Source of the DNA: Halocynthiibacter namhaensis
GTDB taxonomy: Bacteria; Pseudomonadota; Alphaproteobacteria; Rhodobacterales; Rhodobacteraceae
Direction of reading: 5' to 3'
Assembly (NCBI RefSeq): GCF_000812685.1
Contig: NZ_JWIF01000040.1
Span: forward strand, 62,001-126,000
Length of the DNA stretch: 64,000 nucleotides
Below, in pieces: positions 49,257 through 55,218 of this stretch. Every line of letters starts with the position of its first letter. The first letter of the stretch is position 1. The notes beneath the pieces are model-generated. The model had not been told where the DNA came from and did not search any database. It saw only the letters and a list, made by a program, of their open reading frames with translations. Both the position numbers and the translations under genes were made by a program.

Positions 49257-50777
49257 ATGATGACACGCATTTTATCCCTGCCGTTTATGGTCATCCTGAT
49301 GGGGATCGCATCGTTACTGATGTTTCCGGTGGCCATGGTTGGCGTATATTTTAACGACAGTCGCGAGGCCCGCGTGTTCCTTTACGGCGGCATTTTGTTC
49401 CTGATCCTGACCGCTTTGATCGCGATCGCCACGGAACACAACAAATCCCGATCCGTGTTGCAAAGTCACCTTCTGGCCTTGGCTGGTGCTTGGACGTTGT
49501 TGCCCATCATGTTGGCGGTTCCATTCTACGAATCCTTGCGCAACACGGCCTTTCTGAACGCCTATTTTGAGATGTTATCCGCCTTCACGACCACCGGAGC
49601 AACGCTGTTTGACGATCCAGACCGCCTGTCACGAACTCTGCATTTTTGGCGCAGTCTTGTCGGCTGGATGGGCGGTTTTTTCATCTGGGTTGTTGCAATC
49701 TCGATCCTTGCGCCGCTGAATTTAGGTGGTTTTGAAGTCACTGCACGATCCCGACTTAGTCGGACCGGAAATTACTTCAACTGGATCGGTCGCGAGGCGT
49801 CTCCGGCAAAAAGACTGTCCCATCATGCGGCACATCTCGCACCGATTTACGGCGGTTTAACCGCAGCACTCGCGTTCTTTCTATTCGTCAGCGGAGAGAA
49901 CGCCTTCATCGCGATTTGCCACGCGATGGCAACGCTTTCGACCAGTGGGATATCACCGGTCGGGGGGCTTGCAGGTGGCAATAACAGTTTTGCAAGCGAA
50001 GCGTTGATTTTCATCTTTTTGTTCTTCGCGATTTCACGCCTTACGTTCGCACCAGAAACACAACGTAACAGCCTGACACGTCTGTCATCTGATCCAGAAT
50101 TCCTCATGGGGATCTTGCTGGTTCTTGCGGTGCCAACACTGTTGTTCCTACGCCATTGGTGGGGGGCATTCGAATTTAATGACCAAGAAAACACCACTGC
50201 GGCATTCAACGCATTTTGGGGCGCAGCTTTTACGGTTTTGTCCTTTCTAACCACCACTGGCTTTGAAAGCACCGCGTGGTCAGATGCGCGCGGGTGGTCT
50301 GGGCTTCCCACGCCGGGATTGATTATGGTGGGATTGGCGACCGTGGGTGGGGGGGTCGCAACAACTGCTGGCGGCGTGAAATTACTGCGGGTATTTGCGC
50401 TTTATCGCCACGGCGTCCAGGAAATGGAAACCTTGGTTCATCCGCATATTGTCTCTGGTTCAGGCGAGAACTCACGCCACCTTGGGCGTCAGGGGGCTTA
50501 TATGGCGTGGATATTTTTCATGCTTATGGCCGTTAGTATTGCGCTGGCCAGTTTGGGTCTTGCGCTGACGGGGTTGGACTTTGAAACCTCGTTCATATTT
50601 GCGGTCTCTTCCCTGTCGACCACCGGCCCATTGCCTGGCGTTGCGATGCACCAGCCGCTGTCTTGGGCCGATATGTCAGGGATTGGCAAAGCCATTGCGG
50701 GAACCGCCATGGTCCTTGGGCGTATGGAAACCCTTGCAGTTATCGCGCTGCTGAACCCCGGTTTCTGGCGCCGATAG
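49257..50777 (+). CDS. trkH: Trk potassium transporter TrkH
   Basis: Potassium channel-like transporter of the inner membrane, 506 residues and about ten membrane segments. Four pore-loop filter motifs are visible: T-T-G-A-T-L-F, S-T-S-G-I-S-P-V-G-G, T-T-G-F-E-S-T and S-T-T-G-P-L-P-G, as in the Trk/Ktr family. The start is ATG at 49257, with another ATG next to it. Coupled to trkA. Confidence 0.97.
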   Translation: MMTRILSLPFMVILMGIASLLMFPVAMVGVYFNDSREARVFLYGGILFLILTALIAIATEHNKSRSVLQSHLLALAGAWTLLPIMLAVPFYESLRNTAFLNAYFEMLSAFTTTGATLFDDPDRLSRTLHFWRSLVGWMGGFFIWVVAISILAPLNLGGFEVTARSRLSRTGNYFNWIGREASPAKRLSHHAAHLAPIYGGLTAALAFFLFVSGENAFIAICHAMATLSTSGISPVGGLAGGNNSFASEALIFIFLFFAISRLTFAPETQRNSLTRLSSDPEFLMGILLVLAVPTLLFLRHWWGAFEFNDQENTTAAFNAFWGAAFTVLSFLTTTGFESTAWSDARGWSGLPTPGLIMVGLATVGGGVATTAGGVKLLRVFALYRHGVQEMETLVHPHIVSGSGENSRHLGRQGAYMAWIFFMLMAVSIALASLGLALTGLDFETSFIFAVSSLSTTGPLPGVAMHQPLSWADMSGIGKAIAGTAMVLGRMETLAVIALLNPGFWRR

Positions 50778-50958: not shown

Positions 50959-51195
50959 ATGGCTGCCGACAAGCAAAATCTCCAGGAAACCTTCCTGAAT
51001 CATGTGCGCAAATCCAAAGTGCCTGTGACCATCTTCCTGATTAATGGTGTTAAACTTCAAGGGGTTATCTCTTGGTTTGACAATTTTTGTGTGTTGCTAC
51101 GTCGCGACGGGCAATCACAGTTGGTGTTCAAAGGTGCAATTTCTACAATCATGCCGTCCCAACCGATCAGTCTCTATGAAGGCGAAGAAGAATAA
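50959..51195 (+). CDS. hfq: RNA chaperone Hfq with altered Sm2 signature
   Basis: Hexameric Sm-like protein that pairs small RNAs with messages. The 78-residue protein is clearly Hfq: [23 protein letters not shown] and [16 protein letters not shown]. The conserved Y-K-H-A motif, however, reads F-K-G-A (residues 57-60), so the histidine of the proximal RNA-binding pore is glycine, as the codons at 51127-51138 (TTC AAA GGT GCA) show. Length and acidic C-terminus are ordinary for the group. AAAGG precedes the ATG. hflX starts three bases after. Confidence 0.96.
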
Positions 51196-51198
51196 CTT

Positions 51199-52491
51199 TT
51201 GACCATTGATCGCCAGGAACAGCCCACGCGCGCGTGGGTTTTGCATCCCGATATAAAATCATCTGACTCGCGTTTACGGCGCGGACGACGCAGTCCTGAG
51301 CACGCCATTGGCGAAGGTGTCGCGCTTGCGTCTGCCTTGCCAGGACTTGAAGTCATCGGTCAAACAATTGTGCCTCTGCCGAAAACGCGGCCGGGCTTTT
51401 TGTTTGGGTCAGGTAAAACCAATGAACTTGGAAACCTTTTGGCTGAGAACGAGGTCGAGTTGGTCCTGATTGATGGCCCATTGACCCCAGTTCAGCAACG
51501 CAACCTTGAAAAGGCTTGGGGCCTCAAGATCTTGGATCGCACGGGTCTGATCTTAGAGATCTTCTCTGATCGGGCGCAAACCCGCGAGGGTGTGTTACAG
51601 GTCGAGATGGCCGCCTTATCCTATCAGCGAACCCGTTTGGTGCGCGCTTGGACCCACTTGGAACGCCAGCGTGGTGGTTTGGGATTTGTTGGTGGTCCGG
51701 GTGAAACCCAGATTGAGGCTGACCGTCGCGCGATTGATGACCAAATCGTGCGTTTGAGGCGTCAGTTGGAAAAGGTTGTGAAAACCCGTGACTTACACCG
51801 ATCGGCGCGGGCAAAAGTGCCCTATCCGATTGTGGCTTTGGTTGGCTATACCAACGCCGGGAAATCGACCCTTTTCAATTACTTGACCGGTGCCGAGGTC
51901 ATGGCGAAAGACATGCTTTTTGCCACGCTTGACCCAACCATGCGGTCTGTCCAGCTGCCGTCCGGGCGCGACATAATTCTGTCCGATACCGTTGGGTTCA
52001 TTTCTGAACTGCCGACCGAATTGGTTGCTGCGTTTCGTGCAACGTTGGAAGAGGTGCTGAGCGCAGATTTGATCGTGCATGTACGCGATATATCTCATCC
52101 AGATTCAGAGACCCAAGCCAAGGATGTTGAACAGATTTTGACAACGCTTGGGATCCAGCAGGATGTGAAACGCGTTGAAGTCTGGAACAAGCTTGACCTT
52201 GTTGAGGATGCGGTTCGAGATGCCCTTGAGATCCGTGCAGACCGATCCGAGGAAACATTCGCCGTCTCGGCTTTAACCGGGGAAGGTTTGGACGCGCTGC
52301 TTGAGACGATTTCAAACAGGCTTACCGATCCAAAGACCGAGGAAACAATCGTGCTGCCCTGGGCTGATGGGCGTAAGCGGGCTTGGTTGTTTGATCAGGG
52401 CGTGATTGAGGCTGAGCGTCAGGAAGAAGACGGGTTTCATCTCGATCTTCTCTGGACAGCGCGTCAAAAGAAACGTTATCGCGAGCTTTAA
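51199..52491 (+). CDS. hflX: GTPase HflX (TTG start)
   Basis: Ribosome-associated GTPase involved in rescue of stalled ribosomes. The 430-residue protein has the HflX N-domain (G-S-G-K-T-N-E-L), the helical G-G-P-G-E-T-Q-I-E-x-D-R-R segment, and G motifs G-Y-T-N-A-G-K-S-T, D-T-V-G-F-I and N-K-L-D. No ATG is available near; TTG at 51199, three bases after the hfq stop, gives the family N-terminus. It ends in a hairpin overlapping the stop. Confidence 0.94.
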   Translation: MTIDRQEQPTRAWVLHPDIKSSDSRLRRGRRSPEHAIGEGVALASALPGLEVIGQTIVPLPKTRPGFLFGSGKTNELGNLLAENEVELVLIDGPLTPVQQRNLEKAWGLKILDRTGLILEIFSDRAQTREGVLQVEMAALSYQRTRLVRAWTHLERQRGGLGFVGGPGETQIEADRRAIDDQIVRLRRQLEKVVKTRDLHRSARAKVPYPIVALVGYTNAGKSTLFNYLTGAEVMAKDMLFATLDPTMRSVQLPSGRDIILSDTVGFISELPTELVAAFRATLEEVLSADLIVHVRDISHPDSETQAKDVEQILTTLGIQQDVKRVEVWNKLDLVEDAVRDALEIRADRSEETFAVSALTGEGLDALLETISNRLTDPKTEETIVLPWADGRKRAWLFDQGVIEAERQEEDGFHLDLLWTARQKKRYREL

Positions 52492-52522: not shown

Positions 52523-55084
52523 TTATTCTGATGGCGAAACGTTCGGTATTAGCGTCATAATGCCTGCGTTTGCGGCGCGCGCCAGGGCTGGATCCAGTGA
52601 CATCGGGATGTATTCGCCGCGCCGCCACAATTCCCCAAGATTATCATAAAAGCGGGAAAATGGGTGGCCGGACTGGCCGGTTGACAGAATGAAAACAGAG
52701 CTATCTGGATCTGCGAAATCATAGACACCACGATATCCCGCCGCATGAATATTGGCATAGGGGGTTTCGCCACTGCCAATCATTCGGCCACGCATCAATG
52801 CTTCGTCGCCACCACTGGTGGATTGCCTGATATTGACCACCCAACCTAAGAATGGGTTTGTTCCCAAAACCTTATGATCTTGCTGGGCCTCATGTTGGTC
52901 ACCCCAACGCTGGCTTTCAGGCGTACCGCCGATGTTCTCGTCAATCCAGATAAGGGCCTCGTCTAATGCGGCTTGAGCGATTTCAGGGCAGGTCTCAATC
53001 ACGGTGGATTGTACCACATCGCACCAGCGAGATGCACCATCGATGTCGCGGAAAACCCGTTCGATGAAGAGGGGTTCGAGACTTGTGAATTCATCTGCGA
53101 GATCCCCAAGTTCGTCCCGAATTAGACGATCCTGAAGGTGGCGCATCCATGTTGCATAGAGCAGCGGTTCAGGCAAATGTTCATTCATCGCACCATTCCA
53201 CACAGACAACAGTTCAAGCGCCTTGTGACGCCGCCGTTCGACCGATCCGGCGGCGGCAGGTGTGTCGTTATACCAAAGCTCAGCACCGACCAAAGTCAGC
53301 AGCGTGCGGGCTGCGGTGGAAACCTCATCCAATTGCACATCGATAAAGCTGTCACGGGTGTGGACACGGCGATTTTGCATGAGAAACTCCCAACGTTGAA
53401 CCCGCTGGCTGTCGCCCCAATTGAAGGTCATGTGACGTGGGAAGGGGGCGTCGGTGATCTTGTTATTGGTGTTGCCCAATATCCCGCCCGTGGGTTCAAT
53501 GAACTCGGGGTTTTCGCTATAGGCAAGGCGTCCCAGCCATTGATTGAAGGCCAAAGCCCCCAATGCGGGAATGCGCCCTTGGCCCGTCTGACGGAATGCG
53601 CGTTTTGGAAAAGCGCCCAGTGTTTTCATGGCGATACGGTTGGGCTCGGCCAAGGTCAGGTTGATTGACGGCGCAATGAAATCTTCGCCAGATGTGATGG
53701 CTTCTTCAATCGTTTGGGCGTTGGTCAGATTAACAATTGCCGCGATCGTTGTGTCTGCGGGGGAAAGTGCGGTCCAGGAAATCGATGCGACATGACCCGG
53801 GGGGGTAACGCTGCCGATATCATAGTGCCAGTCGGGAATGACCGGGCCGTGGGCGCTCCAACGGAGGGTAATACGGCGTGGCTGTGCGCCCTTAATATTG
53901 ATCACGTCATCACGTTGATCAAAGGTCGCAAAGCCCGTCGGTGTCAGATATTCATCAGCATTGGACGGGTTGATTTCCTCAAGGAAGACATCCAAGTCAT
54001 CAAGCGTGCTGGCCGTATAGCCCCATGCCAAGTGATCGGAACGCCCAGACCAAACACCGGGAACACCGGGAATGGTGGCACCGATTAGACCACCGCCAGC
54101 CAGTTCAAGTCGGGCGAGATACCAAACAGACGGCGCGGAGAGATCGAAGTGCGGATCATTGGCCAGCAGTGTCGCCCCGGTTGCTGATCTTGTGGGGGCG
54201 GCGGCAAACACGTTCGACGCCCCGGCAAATGCGCGGCGGGGAAATGGCGACAAAGCCAAATCCGGAGAGACCAAATCCGTACCAAAGGCCAAGTCATCGT
54301 CCGTCGACAACAATCTGCGCAATTGATTGATGGCTTGCGCAGTTTGATTAGGATCAGCCTGACGTCGATGATCACCTGACAGTCCGGCGTTCTTATCTTC
54401 ATAGCTTGGCAATTCCGCAAGCGCGCTGCCTGGCACATCAGGAAGCAGATCTGCCAATTGTTCGGGTGCCAATACCATCGCGGTTTTCATACGCAAAATG
54501 TCTTGTTCAAGCTGACCGGACATGCGCAACGCCAGCAGTTTAACAAGCGCAATACTGTCAGCCGCTTCCCAGGGTTCAACCGCGCCAGGGAACAAGAAAA
54601 ATTCAGGCGCGCCGCGGCCCAACGCTTCGGTGTTGATCGTATTGATCCATGCATTAATGCCGGCAGAATAGGCGTCCAAAATTTCCAATGTGCTTGGGTC
54701 TAGCGCGCCAACAGATTGCCTTGCCGCAGCATAAAGCCCGAGTCGACGCATGACTTCGTCAGTGTCGGCGGTTTCCGCGCCAAAGACTTCGGATAAACGC
54801 CCTTGCGCTGTGCGACGGTCCACGATCATCTGCCAGATGCGATCTTGGGCGTGTACAAAGCCAAGACCAAACCAGGCATCCTTGTCGTTCTGCGCAAAGA
54901 TATGTGGGACAGCCGCATTTGTGCGAATAACTTCTATCGGTTCCGATACTGCATTTAGGCGATATGTGGCGTTGTAATCGGGCAGGGAACGGGATGCCAA
55001 ATACCAAATGATGGCCACAGCGCAAAGCGACAATACGCAGAGGGATACGAAAATTCGGAAGGTCCAGCGAAGTAAATGCGCCAT
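52523..55084 (-). CDS. Penicillin acylase/N-acylamide hydrolase family protein
   Basis: Ntn-hydrolase family made as a precursor that cuts itself into two chains; members act on penicillins or acyl-homoserine lactones. The 853-residue protein has an N-terminal membrane anchor (about 5-28), H-A-Q-D-R-I-W-Q-M, and the autocleavage site F-A-G-A-S-N-V-F-A, where the serine becomes the new N-terminal nucleophile. N-D-P-H-F follows as in the family. The substrate cannot be told. The ATG at 55084 follows AAAGG. Confidence 0.93.
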   Translation of the reverse strand: MAHLLRWTFRIFVSLCVLSLCAVAIIWYLASRSLPDYNATYRLNAVSEPIEVIRTNAAVPHIFAQNDKDAWFGLGFVHAQDRIWQMIVDRRTAQGRLSEVFGAETADTDEVMRRLGLYAAARQSVGALDPSTLEILDAYSAGINAWINTINTEALGRGAPEFFLFPGAVEPWEAADSIALVKLLALRMSGQLEQDILRMKTAMVLAPEQLADLLPDVPGSALAELPSYEDKNAGLSGDHRRQADPNQTAQAINQLRRLLSTDDDLAFGTDLVSPDLALSPFPRRAFAGASNVFAAAPTRSATGATLLANDPHFDLSAPSVWYLARLELAGGGLIGATIPGVPGVWSGRSDHLAWGYTASTLDDLDVFLEEINPSNADEYLTPTGFATFDQRDDVINIKGAQPRRITLRWSAHGPVIPDWHYDIGSVTPPGHVASISWTALSPADTTIAAIVNLTNAQTIEEAITSGEDFIAPSINLTLAEPNRIAMKTLGAFPKRAFRQTGQGRIPALGALAFNQWLGRLAYSENPEFIEPTGGILGNTNNKITDAPFPRHMTFNWGDSQRVQRWEFLMQNRRVHTRDSFIDVQLDEVSTAARTLLTLVGAELWYNDTPAAAGSVERRRHKALELLSVWNGAMNEHLPEPLLYATWMRHLQDRLIRDELGDLADEFTSLEPLFIERVFRDIDGASRWCDVVQSTVIETCPEIAQAALDEALIWIDENIGGTPESQRWGDQHEAQQDHKVLGTNPFLGWVVNIRQSTSGGDEALMRGRMIGSGETPYANIHAAGYRGVYDFADPDSSVFILSTGQSGHPFSRFYDNLGELWRRGEYIPMSLDPALARAANAGIMTLIPNVSPSE

Positions 55085-55218
55085 GTTAATTGCCTTTGCG
55101 ATCGCTTTTGAGGTGCAAACTTGACGCCCCAAGAGGCAGCCTGGAATTGACCTTTGATGGTTTCCACTTCATTACGAAATGAGCATGTGAAAAGCAATTC
55201 AAAGAAGTGGGGAAGATC

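Follow-up and report, generated by a model that had tools for sequence, protein, structure and literature searches.

Hfq helps small regulatory RNAs (sRNAs) to their targets, and the histidine of its pocket, H57 in Escherichia coli numbering, is regarded as a conserved feature of the protein and has been studied by means of engineered mutants. In the window, the whole stretch of 64,000 nucleotides that was analysed, hfq encodes F-K-G-A at residues 57-60 (TTC AAA GGT GCA, 51127-51138), whereas residues 55-58 of E. coli Hfq read Y-K-H-A. The locus raises the question whether a protein that lacks this histidine is an artefact, a decaying Hfq, or a working Hfq with an altered pocket. Translation of the gene bears out the replacement reported in the initial annotation, and the features concerned are collected in Table 1.

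Table 1. Features of the hfq locus in window coordinates, with E. coli residues in brackets
Feature	Position	Strand	Description	Basis
hfq	50959..51195	+	78 aa, sole genome copy	profile searches, AlphaFold2, best PDB match C. crescentus 6gwk
F57 (Y55)	51127..51129	+	codon TTC	translation, alignments
K58 (K56)	51130..51132	+	codon AAA, kept	invariant in 28-sequence alignment
G59 (H57)	51133..51135	+	codon GGT, the missing histidine	Gly in 0/191 non-F-K-G order loci
Q9 (Q8)	50983..50985	+	uracil contact, kept	invariant in 28-sequence alignment
E10-T11 (D9-P10)	50986..50991	+	altered alongside F-K-G	locus comparison within order
N42 (Q41)	51082..51084	+	kept in window	Ser in 41/46 Y-K-S relatives
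F43 (F42)	51085..51087	+	base-stacking residue, kept	order loci, 28-sequence alignment
hflX	51199..52491	+	input for stand-in species tree	HflX domains
trkH	49257..50777	+	upstream of hfq; input for stand-in species tree	TrkH domain

The open reading frame is complete, with an ATG start and a TAA stop, and although its product departs from the Sm2 signature Y-K-H, it passed the curated Hfq models, which do not require that motif: Pfam PF17209 (106.3 bits, cut-off 27), NCBIfam NF001602 (121.2, cut-off 95) and TIGR02383 (104, cut-off 61.7). With NF010691, a longer Hfq model of 176 positions, 73 positions were matched and the score of 127.9 bits lay below the cut-off of 270. The proximal-pocket set of Q8, Q/N/K41, F/Y42 and K56 (E. 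coli numbers) is present as Q9, N42, F43 and K58. The AlphaFold2 monomer model (mean pLDDT 90.4, input alignment of 28 sequences) showed the Sm fold, with a predicted helix at 2-18 and strands at 22-27, 32-40, 44-49, 52-57 and 61-66, and the best PDB match of this model in Foldseek was Caulobacter crescentus Hfq, 6gwk (TM 0.83 by query), with the engineered Pseudomonas aeruginosa H57A (3m4g) and H57T (3inz) structures also near it. The neighbourhood agrees with this assignment, as hflX starts 3 bases past the hfq stop and an hflX match was found in the fetched hfq flank at all 203 loci of the order; upstream of hfq lie domains of Dus, two NtrBC/NtrYX-like pairs, TrkA and TrkH. Family models and fold alike place the protein among the Hfq proteins, with one signature motif missing; it is a genuine alphaproteobacterial-type Hfq and most likely in working form. 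A search of the 3.5-Mb window genome, rated 99.99% complete, gave this single Hfq match and no second, normal Hfq.

We rejected a sequencing or assembly error as the source of F-K-G and regard its probability as practically nil, since the motif is shared by several genomes and genera through different codons. It was present in all three genomes of the window genus examined (the window genome and two others), where phenylalanine and glycine are encoded by TTC-GGT in the window and by TTT-GGC and TTC-GGC in the other two, and with this the sister-genome check proposed in the initial annotation came out in favour of the motif. Comparison of hfq genes within F-K-G lineages spoke in the same direction against decay. 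Over 77 codons the window hfq (L001) and L112 are separated by 31 silent differences and a single one in amino acid, and L005 and L006, both F-K-G, by 22 silent and no amino-acid differences in 78 codons; the most amino-acid differences among the eight pairs compared were found in L127/L136 (40 silent and 4 amino-acid differences, 76 codons) and L142/L143, which tied with it (35 silent and 4, 78 codons). Because silent differences far exceed amino-acid differences, F-K-G Hfq has been under strong purifying selection since the change of motif, and the annotation was right in saying that the protein, which is intact, does not look decayed. One might still argue that selection has been relaxed, such that these lineages rely little on the proximal face of their Hfq, with a pocket now in decay; this would suit the disappearance of a highly conserved residue and its replacement by serine or glycine, both small and without the imidazole, but it is very unlikely in view of the many silent against few amino-acid differences inside F-K-G lineages, the retention of Q9, F43 and K58, and the state of a probable RNA partner, described below.

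In Rhodobacter sphaeroides UpsM, which comes from the Rho-independent terminator upstream of mraZ, is the most abundant sRNA, makes up about 60% of the Hfq-bound sRNAs and is a feature of the family, according to PMC5089854. We searched for such a terminator in 30 genomes with mraZ (8 F-K-G, 11 Y-K-H and 11 Y-K-S). A first, generic hairpin scan performed poorly, giving hairpins below -8 kcal/mol in 4/8 F-K-G, 6/11 Y-K-H and 9/11 Y-K-S genomes. TGGCAG, the loop present in that scan's own hits, was then used as the search target instead, a choice that favours detection, and a long hairpin around it, followed by a T-rich stretch, was found in 7/8 F-K-G, 10/11 Y-K-H and 11/11 Y-K-S genomes. The hairpin loop is mostly CAGTGGCAGCAG and, judged from place and shape, the hairpin is probably UpsM. 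Over the first 8 bases of the tail, the start of which drifts by a base or two between rows, the number of T averaged 4.86 in F-K-G, 4.80 in Y-K-H and 5.00 in Y-K-S genomes, and over the first 12 bases 5.00, 5.90 and 5.64, respectively, in what are related genomes compared without a statistical test. Altered U-tails in F-K-G genomes were accordingly rejected for this one UpsM-like terminator, the T count not differing over the first 8 bases and being slightly lower over the first 12. The likely main ligand of Hfq seems to keep its terminator and T-rich tail, with no clear compensation in the RNA, which argues against an abandoned proximal face. The terminator of the window genome lies at 1111-1148 of L353 (contig C74), upstream of mraZ, and those of the other genomes within L335-L364. 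The CAGTGGCAGCAG-loop hairpin, with paired changes in its stem, occurred in 28 of the 30 genomes, and its loop is seemingly more conserved than termination needs. An Rfam scan of the window gave one tRNA and nothing else, and the suhB family RF00519 had one match in the window genome, under the gathering score.

How far the histidine has been lost was examined in the order and in the class. Among 203 loci read in the order, some of which are probably the same species present in two collections, 145 carried Y-K-H, 46 Y-K-S and 12 F-K-G; position 59 was occupied by H, S or G only, and neither F-K-H nor Y-K-G was found as an intermediate among these loci. Y-K-S is a second and commoner natural loss of the pocket histidine in the order (46/203), and it is spread over many genera (L114-L126, L128-L135, L137-L139, L141, L151, L155-L173 and L022). 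When the best 80 of 587 named-genome loci, those nearest to the query, were kept, 75 were Y-K-H, 4 F-K-G (Palleronia pontilimi, an uncultured Litoreibacter and two uncultured Rhodobacteraceae) and 1 Y-K-S (Limimaricola litoreus, L022). Whole genomes of the order gave an Hfq match in 292 of 292 sampled; the motif was read in 122 of them (the 30 top scorers, 90 taken upward from the bottom of the score list, G000 and G072), of which 70 were Y-K-H, 45 Y-K-S and 7 F-K-G, so that the histidine is missing in at least 52 of the 292. In the score table the 170 unread genomes are bracketed by the 30 best on one side and by 30 that were read at 9.8e-33 to 1.9e-32 on the other; each of these two flanking score bands was Y-K-H in 30/30. 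Outside the order, 127 reads of the class (67 high scorers and 60 picked for low score or small genome) comprised 118 Y-K-H, 4 F-K-H, 2 Y-K-S and one each of Y-K-K, F-K-Q and L-K-H, and F-K-G was absent from them. The initial annotation had held that wide occurrence of F-K-G in functional Hfq of the group with normal RNA binding would speak against its reading; this is borne out in part, F-K-G being no peculiarity of one genome (12/203 loci in four lineages, beside the commoner Y-K-S).

The number of times F-K-G arose was estimated on a stand-in species tree of the flanking HflX and TrkH proteins. FastTree with 211 rows required 4 F-K-G changes and 11 changes of the motif overall, and IQ-TREE with 80 rows 5 and 11, respectively; when only the F-K-G and Y-K-S rows of the latter were set against each other 4 changes were counted, 2 of them forced by starred branches. 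In a 41-row tree (LG+G4 model, genus row L113 omitted) there were 4 F-K-G changes, 3 forced by starred branches, and F-K-G as a single clade was rejected by the AU test under the same model and rows (p 1.25e-58) and appeared in none of 200 bootstrap trees. F-K-G is thus divided among four lineages: the window genus (lineage 1), Palleronia and relatives (lineage 2; L002, L005, L006, L142 and L143), a Litoreibacter-like group which also has Y-K-H members and whose inner branching is unsettled (lineage 3; L004, L127 and L136), and L140, beside Jannaschia (lineage 4).

A scatter of this kind could also be produced by exchange of the gene. A recent transfer of hfq between F-K-G lineages is unlikely, because their silent sites are no more similar than HflX divergence predicts (residual -0.01, sd 0.065, 199/203 loci). 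An older event is harder to judge since hfq is too short and conserved, and we think it unlikely, though well worth keeping in mind, that F-K-G had a single origin, perhaps together with E10-T11, and was afterwards carried between lineages by old transfer or recombination of hfq and not made by repeated mutation. Lineages 1, 2 and 4 would fit such a history, as they share E10-T11 along with F-K-G and differ by just 1-3 other core residues, but lineage 3 carries D10-V11, the silent sites show no extra similarity, and hfq has hflX in its fetched flank at every one of the 203 loci of the order.

The motif does not change alone. F-K-G loci differ from Y-K-H loci of the order at four sites (57, 59, 10 and 11), in addition to a preference at the variable residue 67. 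Residue 10 is E in 9/12 F-K-G loci and in 0/191 other loci of the order, D being found in 145/145 Y-K-H and 46/46 Y-K-S loci; the link is imperfect, as D10 is kept in 3/12 F-K-G loci, and outside the order E10 occurs with Y-K-H in 9/118 reads. Residue 11 is T in 9 and V in 3 of the 12 F-K-G loci, against A in 138/145 Y-K-H loci of the order, and T11 is also present in 4/145 of the latter and in Caulobacter Hfq. The statement that the rest of the protein is normal consequently needs qualification: the protein is intact and the pocket residues named above are kept, but E10-T11 is atypical. In Y-K-S proteins the change lies elsewhere, with Ser42, at the site of E. coli Q41, in 41/46 Y-K-S against 0/157 other loci of the order, and with Y-K-H outside the order in 7/118. 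The only formal test by phylogenetically independent pairs, that of Y-K-S with S42, had too few pairs (5) and did not reach significance (median p 0.25). We therefore regard the changes at residues 10-11 and at 42 as associated with the motif, coupling being a stronger statement than these alignments prove.

What the altered pocket may do can be argued from known structures and mutants. The H57 imidazole lies near the ribose 2'-OH of the bound uridine, while the base is contacted by Q8, Q41 and K56 (PMC4337610, PMC10628458), and the histidine has also been placed close to the terminal 3'-OH (PMC5379935). Y55 stacks on H57, the positive K56 is partly balanced by D9 where subunits meet, and the hexamer is destabilised by Y55A and retained with Y55W (PMC9228748). 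We lean, with somewhat better than even confidence, to the reading that the window protein is a working Hfq whose proximal pocket is remodelled, the contact to the ribose and 3' end being lost and the reading of the base kept. The change from Y-K-H to F-K-G replaces both the pocket histidine and the tyrosine that stacks on it, and the Tyr-His stack is lost. Without the imidazole there would be no hydrogen bond to the ribose 2'-OH and a poorer reading of the terminal 3'-OH, while stacking and base contacts could still hold U-tailed sRNAs on the proximal face; Phe57 may keep the packing that tyrosine supplied, and with residues 10-11 changed the subunits may pack differently at their interface. 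Binding of sRNA tails might then be weaker, release faster, or the preference for RNA 3' ends reduced. On this reading U-tails are probably bound somewhat more weakly or with lower selectivity for RNA.

The nearest solved structure, both by sequence (2.1e-38) and by fold, is Caulobacter 6gwk, which resembles the window Hfq in the S-W-F-D-N-F context and in a T after residue 10, but has Y-K-H and D10 where the window has F-K-G and E10. In the P. aeruginosa structures 3m4g and 3inz (the latter compared by title only) the same histidine is gone and the proteins were still solved as Hfq; 3m4g is engineered and keeps Tyr55 and D9, whereas the window protein is natural and both stacking partners are changed. 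The engineered E. coli mutants H57A and K56A/H57A likewise remove this pocket position. In one assay H57A bound DsrA at 66.5 +/- 17.0% and RNA I at 72.7 +/- 5.0% of wild type, the RNA I value being marked p <= 0.05, as compared to 24.4% and 36.1% for K56A and 13.2% and 13.8% for the double mutant (PMC11012335). H57A has alanine and keeps Tyr55, whereas the window protein has glycine and retains the lysine whose loss is costlier. Since H57A keeps so much of its binding, and the window Hfq keeps Q9, N42, F43 and K58, a moderate loss of grip is expected and not a loss of function. The suggestion that loss of the histidine could alter sRNA binding is then plausible from the published contacts, with a moderate effect to be expected from H57A. 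The Y-K-S proteins of the order are like F-K-G in having lost the same histidine naturally in several lineages, and unlike the window protein they have Ser instead of Gly, keep Tyr and D10, and carry N42S in 41/46 (L022 keeps N42).

Given the partial effect of H57A in E. coli, the consequence for function may be negligible. In its full form this would mean near-neutral variation, in which the other contacts suffice, H, S and G are interchangeable in the order and binding is normal. The coexistence of H, S and G within one order, the 11 motif changes on two trees, the engineered H57A with roughly two thirds or more of its binding left, the solved histidine mutants (3m4g and 3inz) and the lack of a difference in T over the first 8 bases of the UpsM-like tails all agree with it. 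On the other hand, just H, S and G occupy the site in 203 loci despite many other one-step neighbours of CAY, G59 is paired with F57 and a non-A residue 11 in 12/12 F-K-G loci and S59 with S42 in 41/46 Y-K-S loci, although shared descent explains part of this, and H57A is listed as one of 25 alanine mutants of E. coli in which viable cells were reduced by 25% or more at N-24 (PMC11770335), a point taken to be 24 h of nitrogen starvation. Weighing these, we judge near-neutral variation rather unlikely, yet a reading to be reckoned with. An extension of the remodelled-pocket reading, which we put forward tentatively as a real but lesser possibility, is that F-K-G with E10/T11 (or V11) forms a second, co-adapted working state of the pocket, reached independently several times, in which U-tails would be bound by stacking and base contacts without reading of the 2'-OH and 3' end and the rules of RNA choice would differ, Y-K-S with S42 being a third state. 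If that were true, looser discrimination of 3' ends or of RNA over DNA and a faster exchange of sRNAs would follow.

What is new here is that a usually conserved residue is replaced in two ways, in several lineages of one order, together with neighbouring changes of pocket or interface; no description of a natural loss of the pocket histidine was found among the listed titles and abstract openings of the literature searched, the coverage of which was partial and included few subscription papers. Evolution may already have supplied pocket mutants of the kind that are otherwise built by hand in biochemistry. The natural set of variants, with H, S and G in one order and H and G in one genus-level group (g38), lets one ask what share H57 really has in recognition of sRNA tails and which neighbours compensate for it. 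Should binding indeed be affected, part of a large bacterial order would depart somewhat from the enterobacterial model of sRNA regulation; should it not be, the textbook role of H57 is overstated.

Some further observations were made in passing. Among small or divergent genomes of the class outside the order, L246, L251, L252 and L253 have the histidine replaced (Y-K-K, F-K-Q and two Y-K-S), and L255 (G446), from a 0.9-Mb genome, has an Hfq match with an in-frame TAA and is possibly a decaying hfq. Two Hfq matches per genome were seen in G304 (L226), G436, G534 and G614, from one family of the class, and in G304 both lie in one open frame of 194 residues, perhaps a tandem double Hfq. In the window itself a penicillin amidase family protein of 869 aa is encoded just past hflX on the opposite strand (52523-55132, -).
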